From Candidatus Woesearchaeota archaeon (GTDB lineage Archaea > Nanobdellota > Nanobdellia > Woesearchaeales > UBA11576): DNA of 64,000 bases. The stretch covers positions 124,001 to 188,000 of the forward strand of contig JABJCP010000035.1 of NCBI GenBank assembly GCA_018668595.1, written 5' to 3'. A program made the translations under genes and the position numbers. Shown one piece after another: positions 348 through 20,238 of this stretch. A model generated the notes under the pieces. That model did not search any database and was not told the DNA's origin. It saw only the letters and a list, made by a program, of their open reading frames with translations. Each line of letters opens with the position of its first letter. Within the stretch, counting starts at the first letter, position 1.

Positions 348-1502
348 ATGACACAAACAAACTTATCACTAAAAAAACTGCAAGGTATTAAACCTAAAGG
401 AGTAAAGCAAGCAGATAAAACTATTCAGAAACGGATTGTTTTGTTATGTTCTGAAATGGTTGATAAATATTCTAATAATCCTGAATTAGGATCTGTTCAG
501 TCAGACATGTATGTAGCTGTTGAAAAATCATTGAGGGATTTGGATTTTGGAGAAAAAGAATTAACTCAATATATTCATTCAAGATTTATTAGAAATGAGA
601 CTGAAAACAATGAACTTTATTCAGGAATTTTCTCAGGTTGCCTTTTAGAACTTCTTTGCAGGCGTGCAGATGTAAGAAGAGAAAAGTTTAATTTTTACAT
701 TGATGGTAAAGGTAAAGAATATAATAAGATTTTTTTCCAAGCTAACTTGGTGCATGAGTTAACTGTAGAAAATTTTAAGGGAGACTATTTATGCGGAGTA
801 ATTGGAGGGCAGGGTGGTCGAGCAGATGCGATTAATATTGTTAACTGTGAAGGTTATGGTCCTGGCGCTCAAGTTGCTCAGCATGGTGGAATTTTAAAGT
901 CGTTGAATATTATTAATCATTCTGGTGGTGGTTGTGCTATTGCTGCAGGAGCTCAAACTAAATTAATTGAGGAAATAAATATATTAAATTCCCAAGGATC
1001 TTGGAATGGTGCTCAAATTGGTATGCAGGGAGGCACAGTTAAGCGAGTTAGAATTTTAAATAATAAGGGAGATAGGTGTGCTGCTTACTTAGGTGATTAT
1101 GGTGGTTGTATTGATTCTTTGATTGTTATTAATAGTGAAGGAGATAAACTTGCAGATACGCACGATACATCACTTAATTTGGCGTATTTAGACTATGCTC
1201 TTTTTCATAACATTTCTGGAAAAGATCTCTTAAATCATTTCCAAACAGGAGATTTAATTCAAGGTCAAAACGCAAAAGAATGTTATGATTTTATTAGTAA
1301 CTATATTCTTAAAAAAGCAGATAATCGTTTTGGAATACAACATAAATTAGATTTAAACCAAACTTTAGATTCATTCAGACACAAATCTTATGATGAAATA
1401 AAAAATATTTTCACTGAATTGAATTATGCACTAATGAATTATGAAGCATACGAACTAAGTGTAAGACTAAAAAAGCGAAAAAAACTAGAAGAATTAAAAT
1501 GA
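348..1502 (+). CDS. Array paralog 1: leader peptide + helical domain + 24-residue solenoid, 384 aa
   Basis: Function unknown. Residues 1-20 carry the array leader (NLSLKKLQGIKPKGVK). Residues 21-115 look helical and contain YSGIFSGCLLELL, followed by FYIDGKGK near 117. From about 142 to 265 a regular repeat appears: N-x-x-G motifs at residues 142, 166, 190, 214, 238 and 262, exactly 24 apart, each followed by an Ala/Gly-rich stretch, GG and an Ile/Leu/Val strand. That pattern fits a parallel beta-helix with 24 residues per coil (inference). The frame extends upstream to 294, but the ATG at 348 is chosen because the leader begins there in every paralog and the previous gene ends at 346. No signal peptide or membrane segment. 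Closest sibling by eye is the gene at 3715. Its stop overlaps the next ATG (ATGA). Confidence 0.9.
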   Translation: MTQTNLSLKKLQGIKPKGVKQADKTIQKRIVLLCSEMVDKYSNNPELGSVQSDMYVAVEKSLRDLDFGEKELTQYIHSRFIRNETENNELYSGIFSGCLLELLCRRADVRREKFNFYIDGKGKEYNKIFFQANLVHELTVENFKGDYLCGVIGGQGGRADAINIVNCEGYGPGAQVAQHGGILKSLNIINHSGGGCAIAAGAQTKLIEEINILNSQGSWNGAQIGMQGGTVKRVRILNNKGDRCAAYLGDYGGCIDSLIVINSEGDKLADTHDTSLNLAYLDYALFHNISGKDLLNHFQTGDLIQGQNAKECYDFISNYILKKADNRFGIQHKLDLNQTLDSFRHKSYDEIKNIFTELNYALMNYEAYELSVRLKKRKKLEELK

Positions 1503-2524
1503 AACAAACACAAACAAATCAAACAAATACAAACCAAACTAATTTAGCACTCAAAAAACTGAAAGGTATTAAGCCTAAAGGAGTTAAAACTAATCAGAGT
1601 TCTAAATTAAAAAAATTAATTGATTTATGCGATTCTTCAATCGAAAAGTATTATTCTAGTTCTTCAAATAAATCTATGAGGAATTTTGTGGGTGCAGATT
1701 TAACTAAGGAATACACTTTAATCGGCAGAGAAATAGAACAGTCCAAAATAGAATTTAATGAGAATGAATTAATTGATTTTATTTTTTCTAAAGCTAATTC
1801 TGATTTAGATGACAGGTGTAGTAAGTTATTAGGAACATTCACTAGTTGTCTTCTTCATTTGTTAACAGCTCGAAATAATTATAAGCAGATTCATACTCGT
1901 GTTTATATTGATGGAGATGGTAGTTCTTTTGATTATTTATTTTATGGTGCAAGAAATGTAGATAGGTTAATTATTGATAACTTTGTTGGGAAAAATATAG
2001 CCTGTAATGTGGGTTATATGGATGGTTCTGCTAATGTTTTAGTTGGTAGGAATATTAAATCAATTTCTGCGCTTAGTGCTTTTGGACAAAATGGAAACGG
2101 AGGTTTACTAGTTGGTTGTAATATTAAAGGGCAGTCACCATTGAGTTTTGCAGGAAGTTTTTTTGGTAATGCGGGGATGATTGTTGCAAAAGAGGTTATT
2201 GGTTCTCTTGCTTTAGTTACTGATGAAACTCATTTTAGAAGAACTTATGATTTATTAACAATTGAAAAAGATCAAAACAGAGACTTTACCATTTACGAAA
2301 TTGATATAAGAAATAATAAAACATCCCGGGATAAATTTCAAAGATTTGCAAATATTTCTTCAAAAAAATTGTGCGAGAATTGTGGTTGTGATTCTAAGTT
2401 AATTAATTACTATCAAAACATATTTGAATTAACAGATCATCTTCCAGATCTTGATAAAAAAGAATTAATAGATACTGTAAATAAAATTTATGAAAATTAC
2501 ATAAAAATAAAAAATATAAAATAA
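1499..2524 (+). CDS. Array paralog 2: leader + short solenoid + Cys cluster, 341 aa
   Basis: Overlaps the previous gene by 4 bases (ATGA), implying coupled translation. The leader is preceded here by a low-complexity QTN-rich stretch (residues 3-15), so NLALKKLKGIKPKGVK sits at 15-30. The helical part contains LLGTFTSCLLHLLT (110-123) and VYIDGDGSSFDYLFYGA (135-151). The solenoid is shorter than in its siblings, about 161-240, with NFVG, NIKS, NIKG and VIG turns. Unlike the others, the C-terminal tail has LCENCGCD (near residue 285), a compact Cys cluster that could bind metal or form disulfides. It ends in a Lys/Ile-rich helix. Unknown function; family membership is certain from the leader and body motifs. 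Confidence 0.9.
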   Translation: MKQTQTNQTNTNQTNLALKKLKGIKPKGVKTNQSSKLKKLIDLCDSSIEKYYSSSSNKSMRNFVGADLTKEYTLIGREIEQSKIEFNENELIDFIFSKANSDLDDRCSKLLGTFTSCLLHLLTARNNYKQIHTRVYIDGDGSSFDYLFYGARNVDRLIIDNFVGKNIACNVGYMDGSANVLVGRNIKSISALSAFGQNGNGGLLVGCNIKGQSPLSFAGSFFGNAGMIVAKEVIGSLALVTDETHFRRTYDLLTIEKDQNRDFTIYEIDIRNNKTSRDKFQRFANISSKKLCENCGCDSKLINYYQNIFELTDHLPDLDKKELIDTVNKIYENYIKIKNIK

Positions 2525-2533
2525 AAAAAGAAA

Positions 2534-3664
2534 ATGAATCAAACTAACTTAGCACTTAAAAAACTGCAAGGTATCAAACCTAAAGGAGTTAAGACTAAAG
2601 ACCTGTCTAAACTTGATAATCTTTTATTCGATTATAGAGATTTTGTAGATCATTGTGACTCTGTTGGAATGCGCAATCAAGTTAAGATGATGCATTTAGG
2701 AACAACTCATTATCCTCAAAGAAAAGATTTTTTTGTAAAGCATGATATTGTCAAAGAAGACACCGAAAATTTTATTAAATTAGTGTCTGATTTGGATCTT
2801 GACGATGCCGAAGCTTTTTACACGGGATTGTATTCTGGTCTTTTACTAAGTCATTTAACTGAGCTTGAAAGAAAGAAAGGAAGTTCTGCTAAAATTTATT
2901 TTAATGGACATGGAAGAAAGTTTGATTATTTATTTGCTCGCGCTCCTCATGTTGATAAGTTGATTGTTGACAATTTTTGTGGAAATAATATTCTTTTACT
3001 TGCAGGAAATACTAAATCTTCTACAGATTATGTTCTTGTAAATAATTTATCAGGATCAAATAATTTGGGAGTTGTAGATTTTGGAAATATTGATTTACTT
3101 ATTGCAACAAACTGTAAAGGTGATGAACTTGCAGCAGATGCAATACCTATGTCGTCTAAAGTTGGAATGTTAATTGCAGATAATATTGAGGGTAATTTTG
3201 CACTTAGTAGTGTTGGATTTGGAGGGGGGGCTTGCGGTATTGCTATTGTAAATAACATAAGAGGTAATGGCACTCTTGGAGATTTCGGGGCTAGTGGAGG
3301 ACTTTCAAATCTTGTTTATGCACAAAATATAGTTGGTTCACACATTTTGTATGAGTCAAAAGGAAGTCCTATTTCTGAAGCATTTGATTATCCATTAAAT
3401 TTAGTGCTTTGTAAAAATATTGCAGGAAGCTTTGCAGAAAAAAGACGTAGAATAGACAAATTGGTGGAGTTTGAAAAAGATCCAATTCAGTTTGACGAAA
3501 TCACTAAAAAATATAGAATAAATGAAGTTCTCAACCAAATTAATTCAATCAAAACAGTTGATGAGTCAACATTTGATATCTTGGACAAAATTCAAAGAGT
3601 ATATTTAGAATTAAAACCTAACTTAAAATACTTAGAAAACAAGAAACGTTATGGAGAAGAATAG
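2534..3664 (+). CDS. Array paralog 3, 376 aa (sister of the gene at 4878)
   Basis: Starts 9 bases after the previous stop with no Shine-Dalgarno, only an A-rich tract. The leader NLALKKLQGIKPKGVK is at 4-19. The helical domain reads RDFVDHCDS ... TGLYSGLLLSHLTELERKKG, then FNGHGRKFDYLFARAPHVDKLIVDNF leads into about five or six coils with NxxG turns (DNFCG, NNLSG, TNCKG, DNIEG, NNIRG, QNIVG). The tail contains IKTVDESTFDILD, almost identical to the gene at 4878, so these two are recent duplicates, while 348 and 3715 form another pair. Alternating pairs suggest block duplication (inference). Function unknown. Confidence 0.9.
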   Translation: MNQTNLALKKLQGIKPKGVKTKDLSKLDNLLFDYRDFVDHCDSVGMRNQVKMMHLGTTHYPQRKDFFVKHDIVKEDTENFIKLVSDLDLDDAEAFYTGLYSGLLLSHLTELERKKGSSAKIYFNGHGRKFDYLFARAPHVDKLIVDNFCGNNILLLAGNTKSSTDYVLVNNLSGSNNLGVVDFGNIDLLIATNCKGDELAADAIPMSSKVGMLIADNIEGNFALSSVGFGGGACGIAIVNNIRGNGTLGDFGASGGLSNLVYAQNIVGSHILYESKGSPISEAFDYPLNLVLCKNIAGSFAEKRRRIDKLVEFEKDPIQFDEITKKYRINEVLNQINSIKTVDESTFDILDKIQRVYLELKPNLKYLENKKRYGEE

Positions 3665-3714
3665 TATGATAATAATCATAATAATCTTAATTAACTAAAC
3701 AACCTAAAAATAAA

Positions 3715-4860
3715 ATGACACAACAAACAAACTTAGCACTTAAAAAATTGCAAGGCATCACGCCTAAAGGGATTAAAGCAAATCAAGATAGCTTAGCTTC
3801 AAAAAGATTAATAGATTTAGGTTCAAAAGAAGTTAAAAAATATTCTAGTTTTGTAGATGTAGGTGTTTTTCAAAGAGCTATGTATCGAGATGTCGAAAAA
3901 GAATTAAGAGATTTTGAATTTGGAAAAGAAGAATTAGATCAGTTTATTAGATGTGGTATTATTAATTCTTTTGAGGGTAATGAATCTAAAGTGTTTGGAA
4001 CTTATTCTGGTTGTTTGTTAGAACTTCTTTGTAAACGAGCAGATTTAAGAGGAGATCGATTTAATTTTTACATTGATGGTGAAAATAATAAATTTGATTA
4101 TCTTTTTTTTGAAGCAAATGTAGTTCATGATTTAATTATTGAAAATTTTACTGGACATAATTTGTGTAGTGAAATTGCTTCAGGAGAAGGTAGAGCAGGT
4201 AATATTTCTATTGTTAATTGTGCGGGAGACAATGCAGGTGCTACAATCGCAAGACATAAAGGAGTTGTAAATTCAATTAATATAATAAATCATAAAGGAG
4301 AGTGTATATTATTTAATGCAGGAATTATTTGTGATATGATTAATAAAATTAATATTTTTAATTCTAGTGGTTATTTGATGGGTGATAGACTGGGTTCTAC
4401 AAAAGGAAATATTAAAAGAATAAGATTTGTAAATAATGAGGGAGACGCGTCTTTACATCATTTAGGGTATTTTACAGAAAGTATTAATTCAGTTTGTTTG
4501 ATACAAAATAAAGGAAAATTTAGTTTTGGCGCAAGTGGTTCAAATTCAAAATATGATGTAAATTCTATGCTTGTTCATAACTGTGATGTTGAATTCAAAA
4601 AGAACTTCAAACCAAAGAAGTTAATAACAGATGTTTTTGCAGAGAATGATTATAATTATTTATGTAATCAATTCAAATTTTTTATGTTAAGAGATTATGT
4701 TATAGAATCAAGAAAAGAGCAAGTTGATTTGATCCAGTATGTAGATTCATTTAAAGATAAATCTTACAAAGAAATTGAACCTTATTTTAATTGTATGCGT
4801 AATGCTTTTTCAAGTTTAGAAAAATTAATTAATGAAAGACCAAAACAGATATGGGAATAG
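3715..4860 (+). CDS. Array paralog 4, 381 aa (sister of the gene at 348)
   Basis: Begins 50 bases after the previous gene. The leader has two substitutions (NLALKKLQGITPKGIK). The body follows the 348 gene closely: MYRDVEKELRDFEFGKEELDQFI, YSGCLLELLCKRADLRGDRFNFYIDG, then NFTG, NCAG, NHKG, NSSG, NNEG and QNKG turns about 24 residues apart. The latter half of the solenoid is less Gly-rich and less regular than in its sister, suggesting relaxed sequence constraint with the fold kept. The C-terminal tail is helical (FKDKSYKEIEPYF). No signal sequence. Unknown function. Confidence 0.9.
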   Translation: MTQQTNLALKKLQGITPKGIKANQDSLASKRLIDLGSKEVKKYSSFVDVGVFQRAMYRDVEKELRDFEFGKEELDQFIRCGIINSFEGNESKVFGTYSGCLLELLCKRADLRGDRFNFYIDGENNKFDYLFFEANVVHDLIIENFTGHNLCSEIASGEGRAGNISIVNCAGDNAGATIARHKGVVNSINIINHKGECILFNAGIICDMINKINIFNSSGYLMGDRLGSTKGNIKRIRFVNNEGDASLHHLGYFTESINSVCLIQNKGKFSFGASGSNSKYDVNSMLVHNCDVEFKKNFKPKKLITDVFAENDYNYLCNQFKFFMLRDYVIESRKEQVDLIQYVDSFKDKSYKEIEPYFNCMRNAFSSLEKLINERPKQIWE

Positions 4861-4877
4861 AAAATAAATTAAATAAA

Positions 4878-6023
4878 ATGACACAACAAACAAACTTATC
4901 ATTAAAAAAACTAAAAGGCATCAAGCCTAAATGCGTTAAGACTAAATCTGAATCTAGATTGTCTAAACTTGTAGTAGATTGTAGAGATTTTGTTGGCGAG
5001 TGTAATAGCAAAGAATTAATTCATACTATGGAGTGGATTAGAACTAATCTTGATCGCCATCCAAAAAGAAAAGAATTATTCAAAAAATTAAATATAACCC
5101 AACCAGACCTCGAAAATTTTATTGATATAATGTCTGATTTGATGCTAGACTGCGAAGAGTCTAATTATACAGGTATTTATTCTGGGTTTTTACTTGATTA
5201 TCTTAGTGAACAAGAAAGAAAAAAAGGTCAACCATCTAAATTCTTATTCAATGGAACTGGCAGATCATTTAATTATCTATTTGCTAACTCAAAAAAAATA
5301 GATAGACTTATTTTAAATAATTTTAAAGGAGATAATGTTCTTTATTTAGCAGGTAGAGATTTAGAAAATCCAGCTAATTATATTTATGTTAATAATTTAG
5401 TTGGTAATCAGAATATTGTTTCATCAGGTTCTACGTTTATTGATTTACTTGTTGGAACTAATTGTTCAGGAGAGGGTTTTATGCGTGGTGCAGGAAATTT
5501 AATGGGAAGAATTGGTTTACTAGTTGCAGATAATATTAAAGGTAATTTAGCTCTTGCAAGTGTTGGTGGGAGAGGGGGTAATTGTGCATTTACTATTGCT
5601 ACTAATATTGAAGGCGAATCAACTCTTGCTGATTTTTGTGGTAATTTAGGAGATTCTAATTTTCTTTACATGGAAAATATTGAAGGACCGGATATTTTAA
5701 GAAAAGATGAAATAGAACGCACATTTCCAGGACTTAACAAACCATTAGATTTAGTTGCTTGTAAAAATGTTAAATTTGGATCGAATGAATATAGATTAGA
5801 TATAAATAATTTAGTAGAATACAAAAAACAAAAACAAAAATTCAATGAATTAAAAAACAAATACAGAGTTGAGGAAATATTAACTAAAGTCAGATCTATT
5901 AAAACACCAGACGAGTCAACCTTTGATATTCTCGACGATCTCAACAACATTTATGTTAATATGTATGAACAAATTCCAGAATCAAAAAAGAAAAAACAAA
6001 AAATAATAAATAATAAAAAATGA
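4878..6023 (+). CDS. Array paralog 5, 381 aa
   Basis: The frame opens at an ATG at 4851, but the ATG at 4878 is preferred because MTQQTNLSLKKLKGIKPK then aligns with the family leader; here the second-to-last leader Gly is Cys (PKCVK). The middle contains TGIYSGFLLDYLSEQERKKGQ and FNGTGRSFNYLFANSKKIDRLI, then turns NFKG, NNLVG, TNCSG, DNIKG, TNIEG and ENIEG. The tail IKTPDESTFDILDDL matches the 2534 gene. The stop overlaps the next start by four bases. A helical C-terminus rich in Lys ends the protein. Unknown function. Confidence 0.9.
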   Translation: MTQQTNLSLKKLKGIKPKCVKTKSESRLSKLVVDCRDFVGECNSKELIHTMEWIRTNLDRHPKRKELFKKLNITQPDLENFIDIMSDLMLDCEESNYTGIYSGFLLDYLSEQERKKGQPSKFLFNGTGRSFNYLFANSKKIDRLILNNFKGDNVLYLAGRDLENPANYIYVNNLVGNQNIVSSGSTFIDLLVGTNCSGEGFMRGAGNLMGRIGLLVADNIKGNLALASVGGRGGNCAFTIATNIEGESTLADFCGNLGDSNFLYMENIEGPDILRKDEIERTFPGLNKPLDLVACKNVKFGSNEYRLDINNLVEYKKQKQKFNELKNKYRVEEILTKVRSIKTPDESTFDILDDLNNIYVNMYEQIPESKKKKQKIINNKK

Positions 6024-7303
6024 ACCAAGCATTAGCACTTAAAAAACTGAAGGGAATTAAACCCAAAGGAGTTAAAGTTAGAGATCAAACTAAATTTGAA
6101 CAGTTATTTAATTTAGCTAAGATTGTTATGAGTGGGTTTAATCAAGTTAAGCCAAATAAGTTCCTAGATATAACGTTTAAACAAAATTTTGATGTTGTGT
6201 ATGATCAAGTTAAATCAGTTTCTGATTTTTCCAAAAATGATCTTGAAACTTTTGTTTTATCTTTATCAGGTGATATTGAGGATCATAGTGAAAATACATT
6301 TAGTGATATTTATTTTGATGATAACAAAAAATATGTTTTAGGTTTATTCACTGGAGCTCTTCTAACTGTTTTAACAAAGAGAAACATTAAACAAAACAAA
6401 AAAACAATTATTAATATCGACGGAAATAATCAACGGTTTGATTATTTATTTGCAGGTGCAAGGCAAGTCGATCAATTAGTTTTAAAAAATTTTAAAGGAG
6501 AGGGCATAGGGCAGCATTTAGCAGCTTTTGATGGCTGTGCAAATTTAGTTAAGTTTAGTAATTTAAAAGGAAATAGTATTTTATTTAGGTCTGCATATGG
6601 AGGTAATATGGATATTCTTCATGTAGAAGAAATCAAAGGAGATACTTGTATTTATGGTGTTGCTTCAAATAAAGGCAGTGCTAATTTAGTTATTGCAAAA
6701 AATATTGAAGGTTCTTTGGTTGGTGCTCATTTAGCAAATGATGGAGGTAAAGTTAAATTACTTTTAATTGAGGATGTATTAGGTGATGAAATTTTAGGGG
6801 GATTGTATAGTCAATATTTAGATAAAACCTTTATTGATTTAGTAATTTCTCGCCGTGTTGGAAAGAAAATATTGGAAGATTCTCATCCATTTAAAGGATT
6901 GACATACAAACTAGCGTCTGATTTATTATATTTTGAAGATTCTGATCCTACTGAAATTGAAAATATGAAATGGGCAAGATTCTTTCACGCTTCAACTAGA
7001 TCTTGTGATTTTATAATTAGTACTGCTTGTAATAATGCAAGTTTAGATCTTGATTTTTTTGGTTTTTTGGAAAATAATAATTTAAATATTTACTCTTCTA
7101 AATTTGGTAGAGGAGATCTTATTGAGGAGTATTATGGATATTTTTATGGTAAATCGAGTGATATGTCTAGGTTTAAAAGTAAATTAAAGCAAAAAAATAT
7201 TCCTGAATTATTAAGTGTAATTAACACCATTAAAGGTAATGATTATGAATTTTTGCTAAACCAAGCCAATAAAATAAAACAAATAGTGAAATACAATAAA
7301 TAA
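6020..7303 (+). CDS. Array paralog 6, longest member, 427 aa
   Basis: Starts within the previous stop codon (ATGA). It has the shortest leader lead-in: MNQALALKKLKGIKPKGVK. After the helical region (VLGLFTGALLTVLTKRN) and INIDGNNQRFDYLFAGARQVDQLVL come clean coils with turns NFKGEG, NLKGNS, EIKGDT, NIEGSL and DVLGDE, 23-24 residues apart, each with a GG or DG ten residues later. It is longer than its siblings because of an extra Phe/Tyr-rich segment after the solenoid (around 310-390) containing FGFLENNNLNIY. That insertion is not seen in other members. Unknown function. Confidence 0.9.
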   Translation: MNQALALKKLKGIKPKGVKVRDQTKFEQLFNLAKIVMSGFNQVKPNKFLDITFKQNFDVVYDQVKSVSDFSKNDLETFVLSLSGDIEDHSENTFSDIYFDDNKKYVLGLFTGALLTVLTKRNIKQNKKTIINIDGNNQRFDYLFAGARQVDQLVLKNFKGEGIGQHLAAFDGCANLVKFSNLKGNSILFRSAYGGNMDILHVEEIKGDTCIYGVASNKGSANLVIAKNIEGSLVGAHLANDGGKVKLLLIEDVLGDEILGGLYSQYLDKTFIDLVISRRVGKKILEDSHPFKGLTYKLASDLLYFEDSDPTEIENMKWARFFHASTRSCDFIISTACNNASLDLDFFGFLENNNLNIYSSKFGRGDLIEEYYGYFYGKSSDMSRFKSKLKQKNIPELLSVINTIKGNDYEFLLNQANKIKQIVKYNK

Positions 7304-7365
7304 ACAAACAATAAACAGCAAAAAATAAAAAATGATCAAAAGAAACAAAAAATAATAAATAAAAA

Positions 7366-8616
7366 ATGATCCAAGCTCAAACAAATCAAACAAATACTAA
7401 TCTTTCATTAAAAAAGTTGAAAGGTATTAAACCAGTAGGAGTTAAAGTTAAACCAGAAGACAAAGGTAAAGCTTCTCAGTTAATTAGCATGTTTGATTTA
7501 ATGTTAGAAAAATACGAGTTTCGTCTTGTTGAAGATTATCACAACAAAGATTTCGAAGTTAAGAAAAATATATATGATGAATTAAAAAATGATTTTTTCC
7601 AAGATTTTGATTTTTCTGATTCTGTCTTGCAAGAATTTATTCTGAGAGTTGATTCAGAAAATTTATCTCGACGAGGTGAACGAATTTTAGGTTCTTACTC
7701 TGGTTGTCTTTTGGAATTTTTAACTGAAAAAAACAAACTTACTGGCAAAAGAACAAGAGTTTACATTAACGGAATTGGTAAAAAATTCAATTATTTATTT
7801 TGGCGCGCTAAACACATTGATGAATTAATCGTGGATAATTTTGAAGGGAGAGATATTTGTGCTAGAATTGCTGAGTATGATGGTTCTGCTAATGCAGTTA
7901 TTGTTTGTAATTCTATTGGTGGAAACATATTAGATTACGTCGGGCATGGGCGCGCTAAGGTAGGGCTTGTCGCGTCAATTAATAATATTGTTAAAGGCAG
8001 TGATTGTGGTGGTGTTGGTTCTGATGGCAGCCAAACTGGTTTAATTGCGTTAATTAATAATAAAGGGAACGCAACGTCTGAGACTGCGGGCGCAGGCACA
8101 AGTAATCTTGGTTCTATTCTTTGTCTAAATAGTTCTTACTCAGAAAAAGATCATCCTATTGCTCAAAACGCAGGTATTAGTATTAGTAGATATCAATCAG
8201 CATTTATTCTATTTACTTATCTTAATTCTAGAGGATATCCGTTGGGTTCTAATGGTTATTCTCTTCCAAAAGTTAGACCAACTCTTTTAAGTTATCCTAA
8301 ATTAAGAGGATTTCAAGCTCAAAACAATAAAGATGATAAAGATACATATAAAAAAATAATTAACCTAGGAAATAGTATGAAGTCAAAAACTGGTTTAGAG
8401 ATTAAAGAAATTTTAAAAGAGCTACTAAAAATATACAATCCATTATTTCAAAAAAGTGCGCTCACATTCAAAAATTCTTGTTATGAAAAAGTAGGCGATT
8501 CATATTTATTTGAGAAAAAAAAAGATTGTCAAGTTATTCCCTCACCAGAACAAGTCAACGATGTAATTAATCATTACAACAAAATGCAGGAATTATTCAC
8601 TGAACCTAATCAATAA
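7366..8616 (+). CDS. Array paralog 7, 416 aa
   Basis: A 62-base A-rich gap precedes it. As in the 1499 gene, a short QTN-rich stretch comes before the leader (NLSLKKLKGIKPVGVK). The body has SYSGCLLEFLTEKNKLTGKRTRVYINGIGKKFNYLFWRAKHIDELIVDNFEG in order, then coils that become unusually rich in Gly/Ser/Ala (VGHGRAKVGLVAS, GVGSDGSQTGLIALINNKG, SETAGAGTSNLGSILCLN). Around 8221-8460 the pattern stops and a Pro/Tyr-containing segment and a charged tail follow. Local GC is slightly higher in the Gly-rich coils. Unknown function. Confidence 0.9.
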   Translation: MIQAQTNQTNTNLSLKKLKGIKPVGVKVKPEDKGKASQLISMFDLMLEKYEFRLVEDYHNKDFEVKKNIYDELKNDFFQDFDFSDSVLQEFILRVDSENLSRRGERILGSYSGCLLEFLTEKNKLTGKRTRVYINGIGKKFNYLFWRAKHIDELIVDNFEGRDICARIAEYDGSANAVIVCNSIGGNILDYVGHGRAKVGLVASINNIVKGSDCGGVGSDGSQTGLIALINNKGNATSETAGAGTSNLGSILCLNSSYSEKDHPIAQNAGISISRYQSAFILFTYLNSRGYPLGSNGYSLPKVRPTLLSYPKLRGFQAQNNKDDKDTYKKIINLGNSMKSKTGLEIKEILKELLKIYNPLFQKSALTFKNSCYEKVGDSYLFEKKKDCQVIPSPEQVNDVINHYNKMQELFTEPNQ

Positions 8617-8631
8617 AATTATTATAAAAAA

Positions 8632-9801
8632 ATGAACCAAACTAATCTATCATTAAAAAAACTCAAAGGCATCAAGCCCAAAGGAGTTAAAACTAAAACC
8701 AGCTCCACTTTTGAAATTTTGTTAGAAACTGGTTTTAATTTTGTTTCAAAATATGAGGGGTTTGTAGGAATGATGGCATATCCTCATCAACTAGTTTCTT
8801 TGCGAGATAAACTTTGTGATGATTACTTAAATTCGTCTGTATCTGAATTAAAATTTTCAGAGAAGAATTTAATAGATTTTCTCAAATCAAGAGATTATAA
8901 AGAACATTCTAAAACCGAAACTGTTATTTTTGGTTTGTATTCTGGTTTATTGTTAAATAGTCTCACCAAGAGAAACAAACAAATCAATAAACGAACAATT
9001 ATTCAATTAAATAATTTAAACTATGACTATTTATTTGCTTATGCAAAAGATATTGACACAATTATTTTAAACAATTGCAAAGGTGAGCAAATTTTATCGG
9101 GTGTTGGCAGAGATTCAGTAGTTAACAATATAATTGTTAATAATTTTGAAGGAGAACATCTTATGACTGATACTGCGTCTAATGGTAAAGCTAATTTTGT
9201 TTGGGTTGATGGTTTTAAAGGTAATGATTTGGGTTACATGCTTGCTGTTGATGGAGGGAGTATAGATTTCATGCACGTCCAAAATTTTGATGGTACTTTT
9301 TTAGGTTTAAGATTTGGATTTGGTAATAAAGAAAATGGTTTTATTAACGTCCTTTCTCTTAAAAACATTCTTTCCGGAGGGGATTTGATGTATATGCTTT
9401 ATGCTAAACGGATTTTTATTGACAACATGCGTCCTAAAAGTCCTCAGCATTATTTTAAAAACATAACTGCAGATGAATTAATAATAAAGAATTCTGATAC
9501 AAAATATTCTGGTTTAGATAGAGATTGGTCTAAGATTGAGGATCATAATTATGTCGGTACGCAAAAACCAAGAATAAAACAAGTATCCAAGGGATTATTG
9601 GCAATTCCTAAATATAGGAAAGTCTCAAAAGAATATAAAATAAAACAACTAAATAATATTATCTCCAATTATTTTAAAAATTCAACTCAAGATCCAGAAA
9701 AATTTATCAAATCAATGGAATCAATCAAACCTAACTACCAAAATCTATTAAATAATTTTTACAAAAAATTATCAAAAAAAAATATTAAAAATGATATTTA
9801 A
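8632..9801 (+). CDS. Array paralog 8 (last of the array), 389 aa
   Basis: Leader NLSLKKLKGIKPKGVK at residues 4-19. The helical part contains FGLYSGLLLNSLTKRNKQ and IQLNNLNYDYLFAYAKDIDTIIL. Turns NCKG, NFEG, GFKG and NFDG are 23-24 residues apart, with VDGGSIDFMHV as a model coil; the last coils are bulkier (GLRFGFGNKENG). The protein ends in a Lys/Asn-rich helical tail. A convergent small gene begins nine bases after its stop, so this is the 3' end of the array operon. Unknown function. Confidence 0.9.
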   Translation: MNQTNLSLKKLKGIKPKGVKTKTSSTFEILLETGFNFVSKYEGFVGMMAYPHQLVSLRDKLCDDYLNSSVSELKFSEKNLIDFLKSRDYKEHSKTETVIFGLYSGLLLNSLTKRNKQINKRTIIQLNNLNYDYLFAYAKDIDTIILNNCKGEQILSGVGRDSVVNNIIVNNFEGEHLMTDTASNGKANFVWVDGFKGNDLGYMLAVDGGSIDFMHVQNFDGTFLGLRFGFGNKENGFINVLSLKNILSGGDLMYMLYAKRIFIDNMRPKSPQHYFKNITADELIIKNSDTKYSGLDRDWSKIEDHNYVGTQKPRIKQVSKGLLAIPKYRKVSKEYKIKQLNNIISNYFKNSTQDPEKFIKSMESIKPNYQNLLNNFYKKLSKKNIKNDI

Positions 9802-13830: not shown

Positions 13831-14616
13831 TTAATAATTATCTTTTAGTTTTTCTTTCTCTTCTTTTAAGTTAAAATGTTTGGAAATTGTTTTCATAACT
13901 TTTTGAAACGTAATTGGTTCTGATATTAAAGGAATCAAATCTTCATTCCATTTTTTATGAAGTTTTTTTGCGCGATTAAACATTTTAATAATGTTAAACT
14001 CATCTCCTGATTGTTCACATTTTTTCTTAACTAAATCCAAATCAATTTTAATTCCTTTGGAAATAATTTGATAAAGATCGAAATGATCGCGAGGTTTATT
14101 CCTTCCTATTGTCGCAGCCATTTTTTCTGCAATCATTTCATCAGGATCTAGGATGTAACAAGAAAACTGAGGGATAAAATCGGGATAAAAATGTGGAACT
14201 TCTTTTTTTACAGGCTTGAGATTCAGTTTAGCTCTCGAGTTCAAATCAATAAATATTGTGCCTTGGTTCATAAATGGATCTGTGAAATTAACCGTTAATC
14301 TCGTAAATTTGTAAACTTGTTTATCTTTGGTTATGTTTCCGAATAGTTTACTTTGTCTAATAACTGTTTCAATTTCTTTTATTAATTCATTAAGTTCTCT
14401 TGTTACTGTAAAATCAATATCTTCACTTAATCGAGAATAGTCTAGTATTATTTTTTGCAAAGCAGTACCGCCTTTAAAATAAATTCCTTCGATGTTTTGC
14501 ATAAGATAAAGTAGAACTGTGATGTAATAATCTTTAGCTATTAGTCTCTGGTTGAATTTTGATTCTGCAGAAATTTCAATCAAATCATATTTATCTATGT
14601 TCTTAATTTCATCCAT
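13831..14616 (-). CDS. abiEii: AbiEii/AbiGii-family nucleotidyltransferase toxin, 261 aa
   Basis: Signature residues of the family are present: FKGGTALQK (47-55), a variant of the GSx nucleotidyltransferase turn; RLSEDIDF (62-69) with the metal-binding acidic pair; and the downstream LDPDEMIAEKMAA and RDHFDLYQI blocks. Family members are toxins of type IV toxin-antitoxin/abortive infection pairs that transfer nucleotides to tRNA 3' ends (family knowledge). The start overlaps the end of the AbiEi gene by 22 bases, the usual antitoxin-toxin order. Length is normal and no key residue is missing, so it appears active. Confidence 0.9.
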   Translation of the reverse strand: MDEIKNIDKYDLIEISAESKFNQRLIAKDYYITVLLYLMQNIEGIYFKGGTALQKIILDYSRLSEDIDFTVTRELNELIKEIETVIRQSKLFGNITKDKQVYKFTRLTVNFTDPFMNQGTIFIDLNSRAKLNLKPVKKEVPHFYPDFIPQFSCYILDPDEMIAEKMAATIGRNKPRDHFDLYQIISKGIKIDLDLVKKKCEQSGDEFNIIKMFNRAKKLHKKWNEDLIPLISEPITFQKVMKTISKHFNLKEEKEKLKDNY

Positions 14617-15095
14617 TTTTCTGCCTCTTTTTTTGAAATTATTTTAAAATCGTGCTCTGAACTTTTTTTAGTGATTGATTTGTTTACTTTGTTTTTAGTA
14701 GTTCTATGGAAAACAAAACGATTATTTAGGATGTTTATTTTGCCTTGTCTTTGAGTTGTGTAAATATCGATTTGTAGGGGAATTTGATCTGTAAGTCTCC
14801 AAAAATTTGCAGCAGCCCATCCGCCAATAAAATAATTTTTTCCATCAAACATTTCGTCTGCTATTGTGAATGGATCGTCTGTCCATTTTCCTTTTCTTGC
14901 TTTAATCGGAATAAGAAAATATTTTTTTTTGCTTAGCTTTACTATTCGTCCTTTCTTACGCAGAGTGTATATTGTATTGATCATTTGCTTATTATTTGCA
15001 AAATGTTTTTCTATGTCGTCTGTGGTGAAGTACTGTTTTTTTCTAAATTCTAGATCTGCAACAACCTTTATTTCCATATTAGATAGTCCTTTCAT
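14595..15095 (-). CDS. abiEi: AbiEi-like antitoxin/transcriptional regulator, 166 aa
   Basis: Lies immediately upstream of the toxin and overlaps it. The N-terminus is a winged helix (YFTTDDIEKHF ... INTIYTLRKKGRIVKLSKKKYFLIP), followed by the AbiEi body with YFIGGWAAANFWRLTDQIP, a motif common in this family. The frame stays open to 15209, but the extra residues read through intergenic and direct-repeat sequence, so the ATG at 15095 is chosen; an ATG at 15077 is the next alternative. The protein should repress its own promoter and neutralise AbiEii without direct binding (family knowledge). Confidence 0.85.
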   Translation of the reverse strand: MKGLSNMEIKVVADLEFRKKQYFTTDDIEKHFANNKQMINTIYTLRKKGRIVKLSKKKYFLIPIKARKGKWTDDPFTIADEMFDGKNYFIGGWAAANFWRLTDQIPLQIDIYTTQRQGKINILNNRFVFHRTTKNKVNKSITKKSSEHDFKIISKKEAEKWMKLRT

Positions 15096-15199
15096 AATTA
15101 ACACCCAAATCTTAAATATTAAGATGTAAATGTTATTGATATTTAAACTTTTCGCTTTTTTGATAGAATATTGTAAGCAACCGAATAGTGTGTGGTTTA

Positions 15200-15273
15200 A
15201 AAAAAACAACTACTGATTACGCAACTAGTTGTAGAATCGCTCTTAACAACACTGTAAAGAAAAAGAAATAATA
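15200..15273 (+). repeat. Right copy of the 74-bp direct repeat (orphan ligase gene end)
   Basis: Second copy of 13680-13753. The reading frame of the ligase tail is intact here, including the TAA, but two neighbouring codons changed (Ile-Tyr to Ser-Cys) and there is no gene body upstream. This marks the right edge of the AbiE island. Confidence 0.9.
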
Positions 15274-15308
15274 AAAACTATTTTTTTAAATTTTTTTCAG
15301 TTGTTAAT

Positions 15309-15500
15309 TCAACTATTCTCTTCAACAAATTTCTCAAAACTTCTGTCATAACTTTTTTCACCAGAAACACTAAAAAAACATGCAGGAAGTTCTCTACGAT
15401 TTCGATGATATCTTACACATTCACAGCATTTTCCGCTTCTCGAGCATCCTGCATAAGTGCATTTACAACTTTTTTTATTTTCTTCTTGTTTGCATTCCAT
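15309..15500 (-). CDS. DUF6485-like small Cys-rich (zinc-binding) protein, 63 aa
   Basis: MECKQEENKKSCKCTYAGCSRSGKC is followed by CECVRYHRNRRELPACFF. From memory this matches a widespread short family (DUF6485) with a fixed C-x-C ... C ... CC-x-C-x(n)-C pattern and the ending RELPACFF. The eight Cys suggest structural zinc. A TATA-like TTTTATATATT lies about 27 bases before the ATG, so the mRNA is probably leaderless. Biochemical role unknown. Confidence 0.8.
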   Translation of the reverse strand: MECKQEENKKSCKCTYAGCSRSGKCCECVRYHRNRRELPACFFSVSGEKSYDRSFEKFVEENS

Positions 15501-15581
15501 AAGGATAAAGAATTAAAAGAAATATATAAAATTAGTTAAAATTCAATAAATAATCACTGAAGAGTAGTCAAAAAACAAAAC

Positions 15582-15590
15582 ATTTATAAA
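15582..15590 (+). promoter_or_regulatory. TATA box of the PPP-phosphatase gene
   Basis: ATTTATAAA preceded by A-rich AACAAAAC is centred 27 bases before the ATG at 15613, giving a leaderless transcript. The same arrangement recurs at 37605 and 62662. Confidence 0.65.
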
Positions 15591-15612
15591 GGAGTAGTTC
15601 TAACTGCTGATT

Positions 15613-17253
15613 ATGGTTGGGAAAGTGTTATGGCTAGATTCAAATGACGAGCTCTATAATGAGCTAATTAAATCAGATCTTGCTAAAAAGTATTCTTTTG
15701 AAAAGGCTAATACAACAACAGAATTAAAAGGTCTTGTAGACAAATCCATTGATACTATTGTGTTTGGTGTATCTACTGTTCTAAAAGAAGGTGGACTGAT
15801 TGAAGATATGGATGACGTGGTTGATTTTGTTAAAGACCTTAGAAAAAATTATCAAGGAAAATTGCTTGCATTGGATGGAAGTTATTTAACAGATCAAATT
15901 CTAAAATCTAATTTCGAAGAATATATTGTTGGTTCAATGGCTTATTTTGATGTTAAAAAAGAGCGAGAGAAAAATCAAATCTCTGTACGTGGAAAATTAA
16001 AACGTTATTTTGGAAGCTTAGATTCAAAACTAGACGGTTTAGAAAAACCAAAACCAAAAAGGAAATCAGCAAAGAAAAAACCTGCTACTAAAAAAGCTTC
16101 AAAAAAGAAGCCAGCAAAGAAATCAGCAAAGAAGCCAACAAAGAAATCAGCAAAGAAAAAATCAAAACCTGAATCTATTGATGATTCGATACCTATGCAA
16201 GGACCTTTGTCAGACAAAGAGGATGTGCCTCAAAAAATTAAAGAACCTACTCTCGGACCATTATTGTCCGAAGTAGATGGTCTTGATGATTCGCCTAGTG
16301 AAACATTTGATTATTCTCAACAGTACAATAAACGGTTAGTTATTGGAATTGGTGATTTGCATGGTCATTATCCTGCACTGGTTGAATTATTTGATAAACT
16401 TGATAAATTCTATGATATTTTTGAAGATAGACATAATTTAATTTTAAAACAAGACATTGAAATTAATTTTACAGGAGATCATATTGACCGTGGAAAAAAA
16501 TCATTAAGCATATTGTCTGACTTAGCAATATTAAAAAGAAATAATTCTAACCAAGTTGGTTTGATTTTTGGTAATCATGAACTTATGGCTTTGGCATGTT
16601 TAGATCATGCGCGGTATGTTTCAAGAGTGGAAGACTATGCTCAATATTCTTATTGCATGCATGGAATAAATGGTGGAAAAACTTTTATTGATGAATTTAC
16701 TATTGATGGAACAGACGAATCTGCATTTAGAAATTATCTTGCAAGAATGTGTAATGGTGGAGATGTTGGTCAGTTTATGAGAGGACTTGAACCTTTAATT
16801 TATTCTACAATGTATGATAAAAAAATTCTTTTTGTTCATGGAGGTGTTCCTGAAAATTTGAGAACTGCGTCTAGTTTAAACGAATATGTGGATAGATTCA
16901 ATCAGCTTAAAGAAACAGACACAATTATATTGGGCGGTTCTGATGAGAAATACACTAATGAAGATGTTTTAGGAGATGAGAGTGTTTTTTGGGATAGAAG
17001 TTTAATCTCCCCTGAAAAAAAGTGGACTAAAACAAAACTCAAAAAAGTTTTACGAGATATAGAGGTTGATTATATTGTTATTGGACATACTGCGGGAAGA
17101 GAAATTAGATCATTCCATGATTTAATTTTTGATATTGATGTAAGAATGTGTCCTGCGTATGGAGAACTTGAACCTGCGGCAATTGTTTTCAAACAAGAGG
17201 GAGTTTATGGTTTCTACGCAGACCAAGGAGAGAAAGAAATAACTAAATTCTAA
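15613..17253 (+). CDS. PPP-type metallophosphatase fused to a receiver-like domain through a Lys/Ala-rich linker, 546 aa
   Basis: Residues 1-140 form an alpha-beta domain (VLWLDSNDELYNELI, then KLLALDGSYLTDQIL) reminiscent of response-regulator receivers, without an evident full phosphorylation site set. Residues 145-188 are a histone H1-like KKPAKKSAKK linker of Lys, Ala, Ser and Pro. Residues 240-545 form a calcineurin-like phosphatase: GDLHG (247-251), GDHIDRG (288-294), GNHE (320-323), HGGVPE and GHT, all metal or phosphate ligands in the PPP family (Ser/Thr protein phosphatases and symmetric Ap4A hydrolases). It should act on phosphoprotein or dinucleoside substrates; which one cannot be decided. 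The linker could bind nucleic acid (inference). Confidence 0.85.
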   Translation: MVGKVLWLDSNDELYNELIKSDLAKKYSFEKANTTTELKGLVDKSIDTIVFGVSTVLKEGGLIEDMDDVVDFVKDLRKNYQGKLLALDGSYLTDQILKSNFEEYIVGSMAYFDVKKEREKNQISVRGKLKRYFGSLDSKLDGLEKPKPKRKSAKKKPATKKASKKKPAKKSAKKPTKKSAKKKSKPESIDDSIPMQGPLSDKEDVPQKIKEPTLGPLLSEVDGLDDSPSETFDYSQQYNKRLVIGIGDLHGHYPALVELFDKLDKFYDIFEDRHNLILKQDIEINFTGDHIDRGKKSLSILSDLAILKRNNSNQVGLIFGNHELMALACLDHARYVSRVEDYAQYSYCMHGINGGKTFIDEFTIDGTDESAFRNYLARMCNGGDVGQFMRGLEPLIYSTMYDKKILFVHGGVPENLRTASSLNEYVDRFNQLKETDTIILGGSDEKYTNEDVLGDESVFWDRSLISPEKKWTKTKLKKVLRDIEVDYIVIGHTAGREIRSFHDLIFDIDVRMCPAYGELEPAAIVFKQEGVYGFYADQGEKEITKF

Positions 17254-17291
17254 AAAAATCACTAAAAAAGAAAATAATAATTTAAATTTAT

Positions 17292-18620
17292 CTAAGGCAT
17301 CCACCTTAGCATTGTTCTTGGAAATGGTATGGCATCTTTGATATTTTCTAGTCCACATATCCATTTTATAATTCGTTCAATTCCAATTCCATATCCTGAG
17401 TGTGGAACAGATCCATACCGTCGTAAATCAAAATACCATTCATAATTTTTTATATCTTCGCCTTCTTTTTCAAGAGCTTCTGTCATTTCTTTTATGTCTG
17501 TACTTCTTTGACTTCCACCAACAATTTCTCCATGTCCTTGCGGTGCTAGCATATCAAAACATAATGCTTCGTCAGAAAATTCAGGATCTACTGGTTTGTA
17601 AAATGCCATTACTTCTTTTGGATAATGTGTAACAACTATGGGTACGTCAAAGTGTTCCATTAGTTTTTCTTCTTCTATTGTTCGAAGGTCTTTTCCAAAT
17701 TCAACATCCATTCCACATTTTTCTTTTAGAATTTTAAGCGCTTCTCGATACTTGATTGTTGGCCATTCCTTTTCAGAAAGTTCCAATAGTTTTGCAGCGT
17801 CTTGTTCTAATAGTTTTAATTCCTCAACACGTAACTCTGCAACTTTTTTAACGCAGTACTTTAACTCTTCTTTTGCAAGTTCAGATATTTGGTGAAGGTC
17901 ATACCATGCAACTTCTGTTTCTGCCATCCAAAACTCAGATAAGTGACGAGAAGTTTTTGATTTTTCTGCTCTAAATGTTGGTCCCATGTTGTATACTTTT
18001 TCAAGGGCAAATACTGCTGCCTCACCATATAGTTGCCAGGTTTGTGAAAGAAATGTTTTTGCTTGATAGTATTTTACTTCAAAGAGTGTACTGCCACCTT
18101 CGCATTGATTTGGTTGTAAGATTGGTGCGTCAAATCTATGAAATCCTTTGTTTCTAAAAAATTCATCTCTTGCTTGAATATATGTACTTCTTATTTTTAG
18201 TATTGCAGTCATTTTTCTAGATCGCAACCATAAGTGTCTGTTATCTGCTAAAAATTCTACACTTTGATCTTTTGTAATTGGAAATTTATCTGAGTCTCCT
18301 ACAAGTTCAAAATCATTTGCATGTAATTCATATCCTGTTGGAGCTCGTTCTTCTTTTACTATTTCTCCAAATATTTTTATACATGCTTCTACTTGGATTT
18401 TTTTGATAGCTGCAAATTTTTCATCTCCTATTTTTTCACGTTCTAAAACGCATTGGATTATGTTGGTAGAATCACGCAGTACTATGAATTTAAATTTTGA
18501 GCTTCCTCGTTCTCTATGAATCCAACCGCGTAGAGCAACCGTTCCAGTACCTTGGTTCATTGCGTCTTGTATTGATAAAAAATCTTTATTTTGTTCTGTT
18601 TTTTGATTTTCTGATGTCAT
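17292..18620 (-). CDS. asnS: Asparaginyl-tRNA synthetase, 442 aa
   Basis: Class II synthetase charging tRNA-Asn. The N-terminal OB-fold anticodon-binding domain starts with VALRGWIHRERGSSKFKFIVLRD (residues 29-51). Motif 2 is FRAEKSKTSRHLSEFWMAE and motif 3 is GYGIGIERIIKWI. The ending with HSGYG, CGLENIKDAIPFPRT distinguishes it from aspartyl-tRNA synthetase, which usually has HGG and ILFPRD. Length fits the family. It converges with the phosphatase gene and lies downstream of the cold-shock gene on the same strand, 85 bases away. Confidence 0.95.
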   Translation of the reverse strand: MTSENQKTEQNKDFLSIQDAMNQGTGTVALRGWIHRERGSSKFKFIVLRDSTNIIQCVLEREKIGDEKFAAIKKIQVEACIKIFGEIVKEERAPTGYELHANDFELVGDSDKFPITKDQSVEFLADNRHLWLRSRKMTAILKIRSTYIQARDEFFRNKGFHRFDAPILQPNQCEGGSTLFEVKYYQAKTFLSQTWQLYGEAAVFALEKVYNMGPTFRAEKSKTSRHLSEFWMAETEVAWYDLHQISELAKEELKYCVKKVAELRVEELKLLEQDAAKLLELSEKEWPTIKYREALKILKEKCGMDVEFGKDLRTIEEEKLMEHFDVPIVVTHYPKEVMAFYKPVDPEFSDEALCFDMLAPQGHGEIVGGSQRSTDIKEMTEALEKEGEDIKNYEWYFDLRRYGSVPHSGYGIGIERIIKWICGLENIKDAIPFPRTMLRWMP

Positions 18621-18705
18621 TTTACATAAAAGAAAAAGTTATTGTTTATAAATTTTAATGAATTAATAAGAAAATAAAGTAAAATAAAAAAGAAATTTTA
18701 AAAAA

Positions 18706-19239
18706 TTATTCTGCAGGTTTTTCTTCTTCAGAATCTTCAGCAGCTTCTTCTTTTGGTTCTTCAGCTGGTGCTTCTTCTACAGGAGTTTCCGCAGCAGGTT
18801 CTTCTGGAGCGTCTTCAGCGGGTGTTTCTTCTGCAGGTTCCTCTACAGGTGCTTCTTCTACAGGAGTTTCCTCTACAGCTTCTTCTTTTGGTTCTTCAGC
18901 AGGAGCTTCCACAGCAGGTTCTTCTTTAGCTTCTTCACAACCGCATTCTTCACAAGCTTCAGGTTCTTTTGCTTCTGCTTCTTCTGCAGGTTTTTCAGTT
19001 GCTTCTTCAGATTCTTCTTGAGGAATGTCTGTTCTGTCGCTTCCTTTTGTTAGAAGTTTGACATCTTGAGCATTCTTACCTCTTTCGCCTACACCAGACT
19101 CGAATGAGACAACATCATTATCTCTTAAGAATTTTAATCCATTTAATGCAGAGTAGTGTACAAAATAATCTTCTCCGTCTTCACCCTTAATAAAACCATA
19201 ACCGTTTTTTCGGTTAAACCATTTTACTGTTCCTTCCAT
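18706..19239 (-). CDS. Cold-shock domain protein with a long acidic C-terminal tail, 177 aa
   Basis: Residues 1-66 are a canonical cold-shock domain: GTVKWFNRKNGYGFIKGE (RNP1), DYFVHYSAL (RNP2), and the GERGKNAQDV end. It binds single-stranded RNA/DNA as a chaperone. Residues 70-177 are almost wholly Glu, Ala and Pro in imperfect repeats (EAPAEEPKEEA, VEETPVEEAPVEEPAEE) with one Cys patch (CEECGC). Such a tail is not part of the usual family and may be a self-inhibitory nucleic-acid mimic or a solubility tail (inference). AGGAGG ribosome binding site ten bases before the ATG. Confidence 0.9.
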   Translation of the reverse strand: MEGTVKWFNRKNGYGFIKGEDGEDYFVHYSALNGLKFLRDNDVVSFESGVGERGKNAQDVKLLTKGSDRTDIPQEESEEATEKPAEEAEAKEPEACEECGCEEAKEEPAVEAPAEEPKEEAVEETPVEEAPVEEPAEETPAEDAPEEPAAETPVEEAPAEEPKEEAAEDSEEEKPAE

Positions 19240-19582
19240 TTTTTTCGTTCCTCCTATTTACTTGATTCTATGTTCTCAATACAGATTTATTTTTTTTAAT
19301 ATCTGTATTACTCGAGTTTAGCAGAAACCTCAAGGGGTATATAAATGTTTAGGTATAGGTTACGCATATTAAAATAGTTGTTTAATCATATTTATGAGTT
19401 GATATAAAAGTTGATATAAATTTAGTGTAGAGGTATAGTGTAATTATTAATATAAAAATTAATGGTCGTAAACTTTCCATTTTTTTTCAAATAAAGCTTT
19501 TAATAACAATTGTCAAATAATAAATTTAAATAATAAATTAATCAAATTAATCAAATTAATCAAATTACTTGGAGGGTTATTT
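19240..19582. promoter_or_regulatory. Divergent control region with hairpin leader of the cold-shock gene
   Basis: This 343-bp gap separates the cold-shock gene (minus) from a membrane-protein gene (plus). For the minus gene a TATA box (CATTTATATA, 19338-19347) predicts a leader of about 75 nt containing a perfect 9-bp stem (AATACAGAT 19278-19286 with ATCTGTATT 19301-19309). The distance from this hairpin to the AGGAGG makes it a candidate temperature-sensitive element. On the plus strand, GTTGATATAAA occurs twice (about 19395-19425). Just before the plus gene the 9-mer AATTAATCA repeats three and a half times (19537-19567). Confidence 0.5.
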
Positions 19583-20125
19583 ATGGTAAAATTAGATAGA
19601 GGATTAGGTTTTGGATTATTATTTGGACTTATTGGAATTATTATTTCTGCAATTATTTTTGTAGTTGTTGCAGTTAAAACCGACACAATCTTTGGGATTG
19701 TTGCAATTCTTTGTGGTGCAATTTCAGGCGGAGCTTTTGGTTTAGGTTATAAAATTGGAAAAGGAACTTTCAAAAAAGAAGCTTGTGTTAAGAATTTTTT
19801 ACTTTTTGCAACTGCATTTGGTTTGGTGGGAGTGCTTGCAGCATATCTTGCACCGAGCATATGGTTTGCAATGCATGGAATTCCACTTAGTTTTTATTTG
19901 TCATTAATAGAGTTTGATTTTATGGATGCATTGTTCATAGCTATTGGAGCTTATGGTGGACGATGGGCAGGTAAGAAAGTTGCAAATATGATTATTGTTG
20001 ATTTACAAACTCAGCATGCTGTTGCACAGATGAGACCGATTAAACAAACTGAGCAAACTAAAAGTAATGTCAAAAAAACAACACCTGTCAAGAAATCATC
20101 TAAAATTGCATTAATCAAGAAATAA
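19583..20125 (+). CDS. Integral membrane protein with basic tail, 180 aa
   Basis: Ribosome binding site GGAGGG six bases before the ATG. Four hydrophobic segments can be placed at about 8-32, 40-60, 70-95 and 105-130, rich in Gly with GxxxG spacing (GLGFGLLFGLIG, GAISGGAFGLGYKIGKG). Residues 150-180 are Lys/Thr/Gln-rich and presumably cytoplasmic. No family recognised. It might pair with the next secreted protein, but there is a separate promoter-like region between them. Confidence 0.75.
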   Translation: MVKLDRGLGFGLLFGLIGIIISAIIFVVVAVKTDTIFGIVAILCGAISGGAFGLGYKIGKGTFKKEACVKNFLLFATAFGLVGVLAAYLAPSIWFAMHGIPLSFYLSLIEFDFMDALFIAIGAYGGRWAGKKVANMIIVDLQTQHAVAQMRPIKQTEQTKSNVKKTTPVKKSSKIALIKK

Positions 20126-20238
20126 TTTATTAATTCATTTATAATTTATTTCCAATTTATTTTTTTACTTTTTTTACTAATTACTCGTCTTTTTTAAGAA
20201 AAATATATATACTATAATTAAAATAATATCTATTTATC

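Follow-up and report, generated by a model that had tools for sequence, protein, structure and literature searches.

A tagged 75-gene tandem array in a Woesearchaeota archaeon and a putative docking motif for its MoxR-type AAA+/VWA machine

We describe here a large family of tandem genes in a Candidatus Woesearchaeota archaeon (GenBank assembly GCA_018668595.1; 2.32 Mb, 45 contigs, 90.5% complete; here G000), whose products share a short lysine-rich peptide, the tag or leader, ahead of divergent bodies. The window analyzed is the 64,000-nucleotide stretch of contig JABJCP010000035.1 (C22) from 124,001 to 188,000 (G000:C22:124001-188000). Eight genes of the family occupy positions 348-9801 of the window, all on the + strand, with position 8690 falling at the end of the last leader and the last gene running on to 9801. 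The tag is present in 8/8 of them, within residues 5-30.

These eight genes are numbers 68 to 75 of an array of 75. Array gene 68 (348..1502, 384 amino acids [aa]) carries the tag LSLKKLQGIKPKGVK at nucleotides 363-407, gene 69 (1499..2524, 341 aa) carries LALKKLKGIKPKGVK at 1544-1588, and gene 70 (2534..3664, 376 aa), whose product structure was predicted, carries LALKKLQGIKPKGVK at 2549-2593. They are followed by gene 71 (3715..4860, 381 aa), with LALKKLQGITPKGIK at 3733-3777; gene 72 (4878..6023, 381 aa from the ATG at 4878, within a longer open reading frame [ORF] from 4851), with LSLKKLKGIKPKCVK at 4896-4940; gene 73 (6020..7303, 427 aa), with LALKKLKGIKPKGVK again, at 6032-6076; gene 74 (7366..8616, 416 aa), with LSLKKLKGIKPVGVK at 7402-7446; and gene 75, the last of the array (8632..9801, 389 aa), with LSLKKLKGIKPKGVK at 8647-8691. 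No Pfam family was matched above cut-off by the eight proteins, and Rfam gave no match in the window.

The eight genes form the 3′ end of an 82-kb, single-strand array (C22:51348-133801) with a coding density of 95%. Of its 74 junctions, 32 are overlaps and 35 are gaps of at most 30 bp (0-30 bp); the two gaps longer than 100 bp hold an HExxH-VWA gene and a gene remnant. Outside the array, one family copy lies at C22:195687 and three lie on contig C9, reaching the contig end. Among 296 ORFs from fetched stretches of G000, a profile of the body without the tag matched 80, and 78 of these 80 carry the tag; tag presence was scored with the tag pattern, the genes themselves having been found independently of it. 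One of the two untagged matches is a gene remnant of 143 aa. The other, near a contig end, has a tag just upstream of its called ATG, so the family numbers about 79 copies. A reading made from the window's sequence alone (the sequence-only reading) had described eight paralogs with a conserved leader and divergent bodies; that description holds for a much larger family. Two further features lie near the C9 copies: three tandem paralogous ORFs of 548-868 aa beside them (C9:71044-77127), which have what we take to be a helix-turn-helix and homing-endonuclease look, and, about 10 kb away, several genes with CxxxCxxC-like motifs (C9:60279-67045), which presumably resemble radical SAM peptide maturases.

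The tag is far better conserved than any other part of the protein. Pairwise identity averages 0.85 over the 15 leader residues; elsewhere the average is highest in the core (0.39) and lower in the N-terminal domain (0.18), the solenoid (0.17), and the C terminus (0.15). Within the tag, K, K, L, and G are invariant in 78/78 copies, a figure that is in part a product of the search pattern, which required those residues. Proportions of nonsynonymous (pN) and synonymous (pS) differences were computed by the Nei-Gojobori method for all C22 pairs. In the leader, pN is 0.087 and pS is 0.549, while in the body pN and pS are 0.599 and 0.518 (N-terminal domain), 0.421 and 0.560 (core), and 0.609 and 0.542 (solenoid). 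Nonsynonymous divergence thus drops in the leader alone, where synonymous divergence is body-like. Since synonymous sites of leader and body are equally diverged, the gene copies are old and the peptide has been kept by purifying selection: the tag is maintained by selection on the peptide and not by recent duplication, the alternative that the sequence-only reading had itself raised.

The tag is also specific to the family. A degenerate DNA pattern of it has 76 exact matches in G000, every one inside family genes, and its reversed control has 1; the idea that one tag marks unrelated cargo is not supported in this genome, and relatives carry lineage-specific tags in place of the motif. Between 4 and 23 residues precede the tag in all but one of the 78 ORFs as called. 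The motif does lie near the N terminus, as originally proposed, but its distance from it varies, so it is an internal motif and not a strict N terminus. On inspection it has no hydrophobic core, and a signal-peptide reading was rejected, in agreement with the earlier exclusion of a Sec signal. As a separate observation, codons in the 78 leaders (e.g., 2549-2593) are GC-rich relative to the bodies, and their third-position haplotypes are linked.

An AlphaFold2 model of the array gene 70 product (window:2534-3661; alignment of 19 sequences) has an overall predicted local distance difference test score (pLDDT) of 86.3 and a predicted template modeling score of 0.86. The modeled body comprises helices at residues 26-114, a parallel beta solenoid at about 120-312, and C-terminal helices at 317-363. 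Residues 1-20 have a pLDDT of about 47-48 and are predicted to be disordered, which places the tag, in the model, outside the helical and beta-helix body and argues against its being part of the fold, the other condition that the sequence-only reading had named as refuting it. Foldseek found no significant match to the model in the PDB (best E value, 0.28) or BFVD. By VIA-align, the solenoid resembles many right-handed beta-helices (Z up to 14.3, root-mean-square deviation mostly 3-5), a common arrangement that implies no function.

Two genes accompany the array. A MoxR-type AAA+ ATPase gene (AAA_C; C22:49610-51082) lies 265 bp upstream of it; its product matches PF07726 (AAA_3) at 34 bits against a cut-off of 27, and its profile matches PDB entry 2r44 at an E value of 4.6e-17. 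Inside the array, at C22:72009-74108, is the HExxH-VWA gene (VWA_C), encoding a 699-aa protein with an HExxH motif and a VWA-type metal ion-dependent adhesion site (MIDAS). HExxH is present in 11 of 12 such partner proteins from this and related loci, the N-terminal region of the twelfth (G257) being cut by a contig end, and DxSGS, GGGT, and DG, the elements of the MIDAS (DxSxS...T...D), are invariant in 10/10 aligned C termini. Pfam VWA_2 matches 3 of 10 partner proteins (best, 1.9e-4), and no peptidase family was matched in Pfam or NCBIfam. At related loci the AAA+ and VWA genes are adjacent and co-directional, and by these features the pair belongs to the MoxR-VWA systems. The sequence-only reading had predicted a single partner protein elsewhere in the genome; genomic context does point to a partner, but to a pair, encoded at the locus itself.

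The same plan recurs in other archaea. When the family alignment was searched against 287 genomes of the order, 9 matched, the source genome among them; a match in G250 (E value, 3e-5), to a 1010-aa protein, was dropped as likely chance. The HExxH-VWA search covered the same number of genomes of the order and gave strong VWA_C orthologues (E = 0) in G000, G244, and G065 only, all with large arrays and intact partners. At its array, G244 has about 20 bodies, an AAA+ protein of 57% identity, and an HExxH-VWA protein of 38% identity; G065 has 9 body ORFs, with 49% and 41%, respectively. With C denoting the body type of the window family, the gene order is AAA-C-C-VWA in archaeon nzgw59, AAA-C-VWA-C in S5B12_HD70 (G337), and AAA-VWA-C x4 in G380. 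Sister loci keep AAA+ and HExxH-VWA genes alongside bodies of a second family (type D), which were either grouped by paralogy (G099, G226, G253, G280, and G140) or confirmed by a D profile (G422, G314, G427, and G471); the two body types have a weak profile link (hhalign probability, 39; E value, 3e-4). In G257, about 12 paralogues that belong to a different type come after a cut VWA gene. A phylum-wide search of 371 genomes with a widened alignment matched 23, and of eight loci fetched, six (G337, G422, G314, G380, G427, and G471, the last with one match) have AAA+, HExxH-VWA, and at least one C or D body.

Bodies without a tag coincide with the absence of both partners in 2/2 judgeable genomes: G023 and G224 gave neither an AAA_C match (E ≤ 1e-10) nor a VWA match (E ≤ 1e-20). 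A third case, G282, was withdrawn because its AAA_C copies and bodies are cut at contig ends, so that tags cannot be seen. At G226:C13:27238-28363, the C-type AAA+ gene next to a lone tagged body is broken across two reading frames, whereas the type-D locus of that genome is intact; the C-type locus there is possibly in decay.

Contig C22 itself carries a second example. Array B (C22:22001-42932) contains 17 tandem body ORFs, accompanied by a P-loop ATPase gene (C22:20455-21978) and an HExxH-VWA gene (C22:24388-26382). The N-terminal tag of these bodies, SLDDLARQTAxDDKDLI, is particular to this array. Its bodies are WD40-like by profile (best PDB match, 2.2e-7) and, by profile, unrelated to those of array C, the window family; thus tag, ATPase, and HExxH-VWA protein recur while bodies change. 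Loci of related Woesearchaeota follow a common layout, in which a MoxR-type AAA+ ATPase and an HExxH-VWA protein accompany paralogues whose N-terminal tag is particular to the locus. Two other features of the contig were noted. Just past array B, at C22:43263-44762, is a TldD/PmbA-type metallopeptidase gene (PF19289); TldD proteins process peptides elsewhere. Array A (C22:5448-14166, minus strand) adjoins two large unannotated proteins (14541-20317) and has no clear partner; its tandem paralogues, about 10 in number, share the motifs IPQIxNLEGI at the N terminus and LLDIIExTE farther inside.

Tags of C-type bodies differ among lineages: LKKLKGIKPKGVK in G000, (F)DxLxGIDEARDVQAR in G244 and G253, xELSGIEKREKKE in G065, FDDLKGIQKERDVQER in G226, FNDLKGIQGPRDIKER in nzgw59, and FDDLKGIKEREIKRRE in S5B12. 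The tag is lysine-rich in G000 and acidic in others. Across 12 multicopy loci, the ratio of identity in the tag to that in the rest of the protein is 4.0 for G000-C, 3.0 for G000-B, and 1.7-2.1 in seven others; extreme tag conservation is strongest in G000 and is not universal.

We favor, at a probability of roughly 55%, the interpretation that the tag is a short linear docking or loading motif for the locus-encoded AAA+/VWA machine, to which it would putatively bind. In the mechanism we propose, the disordered N terminus would present cytosolic beta-helix (solenoid) clients to this one machine, the tag would bind its AAA+ or VWA subunit, and the machine would then remodel, assemble, or cleave the clients in an ATP-dependent manner, with the variable solenoids possibly performing recognition. 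This docking interpretation draws on the protein-level conservation of the tag, its disorder outside the fold, its family specificity, the recurring three-part plan, and the untagged bodies found where partners are absent.

Several observations weigh against docking. At 3 of the 12 loci, conservation of the tag does not exceed that of the body (ratios of 0.8 for G380-C, 1.1 for G226-D, and 0.8 for G099-D). A charge-swap co-evolution test of the tag against AAA and VWA proteins found no excess in G000, and the tag has no conserved acidic residue, although the MIDAS of MoxR-VWA systems usually receives one. The array B partners are very divergent (E values of 3e-4 for VWA and 0.23 for AAA). Two of the eight fetched loci (G029 and G045) have an AAA-VWA pair without such an array; G253 (76% complete) has tagged C bodies without a close AAA_C, only a weaker sister AAA; and G226, with its split AAA_C, has no C-type VWA. 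Finally, an LDDL-like core found in 15 of 17 hand-picked representative tags also occurs in the first 40 residues of 20 of 43 other window genes, and was for that reason dropped as evidence.

The main rival, which we consider unlikely, is that the tag is a processing leader, with the HExxH protein cutting at or after it and freeing the body. It overlaps with docking, and the two could share a mechanism. HExxH occurs in 11/11 partner proteins with a complete N-terminal region, and the tag is disordered and accessible in the AlphaFold2 model. The residue following the tag varies, however (V in 24, T in 14, and P in 12 of 78), and there is therefore no single cleavage context; the stretch before the tag also varies in length. 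The AlphaFold2 model of the HExxH-VWA protein (pLDDT of 37.7, from a two-row alignment) is too poor to confirm a fold, and a peptidase role is putative.

Somewhat less probable still is that the tag addresses its clients to nucleic acid, the ribosome, a membrane surface, or another scaffold, the AAA+/VWA locus being merely co-inherited. The lysine-rich composition in G000 and the negative charge-swap test agree with such a target, but the gene plan stays constant across many loci while tag and body family change, bodies are untagged where partners are absent, and the acidic tags of other lineages argue against a conserved nucleic acid-binding role.

We regard as very improbable that the leader is a conserved nucleic acid element (a recombination anchor, hairpin, or antisense target) with the peptide as its by-product. 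Leader codons are indeed position specific and GC-rich (Leu CTG in 50/78, Gly GGC in 47/78, and the second Gly GGA in 70/76, against body frequencies of 2% for CTG and 9% for GGC), and most equally invariant body columns have no such codon choice. Leader mRNA also folds slightly better than codon-permuted copies (mean minimum free energy, -5.96 versus -5.41; standard deviation, 0.18). Against this, leader synonymous sites are as diverged as those of the bodies while the amino acids are fixed, RNAalifold found no consensus among leaders, and both hairpin pairs are retained in only 29/78; a hairpin was rejected as the cause of leader conservation. Recent duplication or gene conversion alone is scarcely credible. 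In its favor, leader DNA distance follows gene order weakly (r = 0.14, P = 0.0025) and does not follow core distance (r = 0.03, P = 0.30), but the pN/pS contrast largely refutes it, because conversion would be expected to reduce both pN and pS.

A broader proposal, which we advance tentatively and think improbable on present evidence, is that the locus is a germline-encoded recognition repertoire, in which some 79 variable solenoid sensors with one shared tag would serve a single AAA+/HExxH-VWA signaling or execution machine, like an innate immune receptor array with a common adaptor, repeated with other bodies (WD40-like and type D) and tags across Woesearchaeota. 

Docking, the interpretation favored above, would make the locus of this uncultured archaeon a one-machine, many-clients system of a new kind. 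Work on MoxR-VWA machines has mostly dealt with a single client or a few; at this locus, where one machine appears to serve about 79 diversified clients by way of one short peptide, client selection becomes directly testable, because tag and body are separable and can be swapped between lineages. A very large tandem array whose proteins match no Pfam family above cut-off thereby gains a candidate function, and DPANN archaea may have recognition repertoires that are able to expand.

Encapsulin cargo tags and the leaders of ribosomally synthesized and post-translationally modified peptides resemble the tag in being short peptides common to varied proteins; here, however, the bodies are large folded proteins and the tag pattern is confined to one family. 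An encapsulin-like shell was rejected, with no Linocin_M18 match in G000 and 3 of 14 control genomes positive. A phage origin was likewise rejected (no match in 50,697 phage records, and none in IMG/VR with profiles A1 or A3), as was membership in PADLOC or PHROGs families, where only weak ATPase-type or borderline matches were obtained. Profile A1 had no match in a genome contig collection that may omit the source genome. We found no paper joining Woesearchaeota with MoxR/VWA, or describing DPANN with such arrays or archaeal VWA clients with docking motifs, in a literature search with thin coverage of subscription papers and preprints, for which absence is weak evidence.

Closest in kind are the MoxR AAA+/VWA pairs NorQ-NorD, RavA-ViaA, CbbQ-CbbO, and Rea1/midasin, for which one or few clients are known. 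They too have a MoxR-type ATPase encoded beside a VWA-type MIDAS protein, whereas here the VWA protein has an N-terminal HExxH region and the clients are large tandem families sharing a disordered tag. Dedicated client remodeling is an established theme of MoxR-VWA systems, partners usually offer an acidic residue to the MIDAS, and for NorQD the target, not NorQ, is considered the likely ligand of the MIDAS (PMC9976466). MoxR ternary systems with sensors diversified by diversity-generating retroelements (PMC10907252) likewise link a varied set of putative sensors to a MoxR ATPase, but here diversity arises by tandem paralogy; reverse transcriptases were not searched for. The MoxR-vWA-centric ternary conflict systems of Kaur et al. 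2020 (PMC7159879) include VMAP, iSTAND, FtsH, and beta-propeller components. Sister AAA proteins match bpMoxR, below its cut-off. No VMAP or other named third component was found in the eight window proteins (Pfam, E ≤ 10), with no dedicated VMAP-model scan of other loci. Those systems share with ours a MoxR protein, a VWA protein, and a fast-diversifying third component; they differ in that the third components here are tagged beta-helix or propeller arrays, of up to 79 copies, in Woesearchaeota-like archaea.

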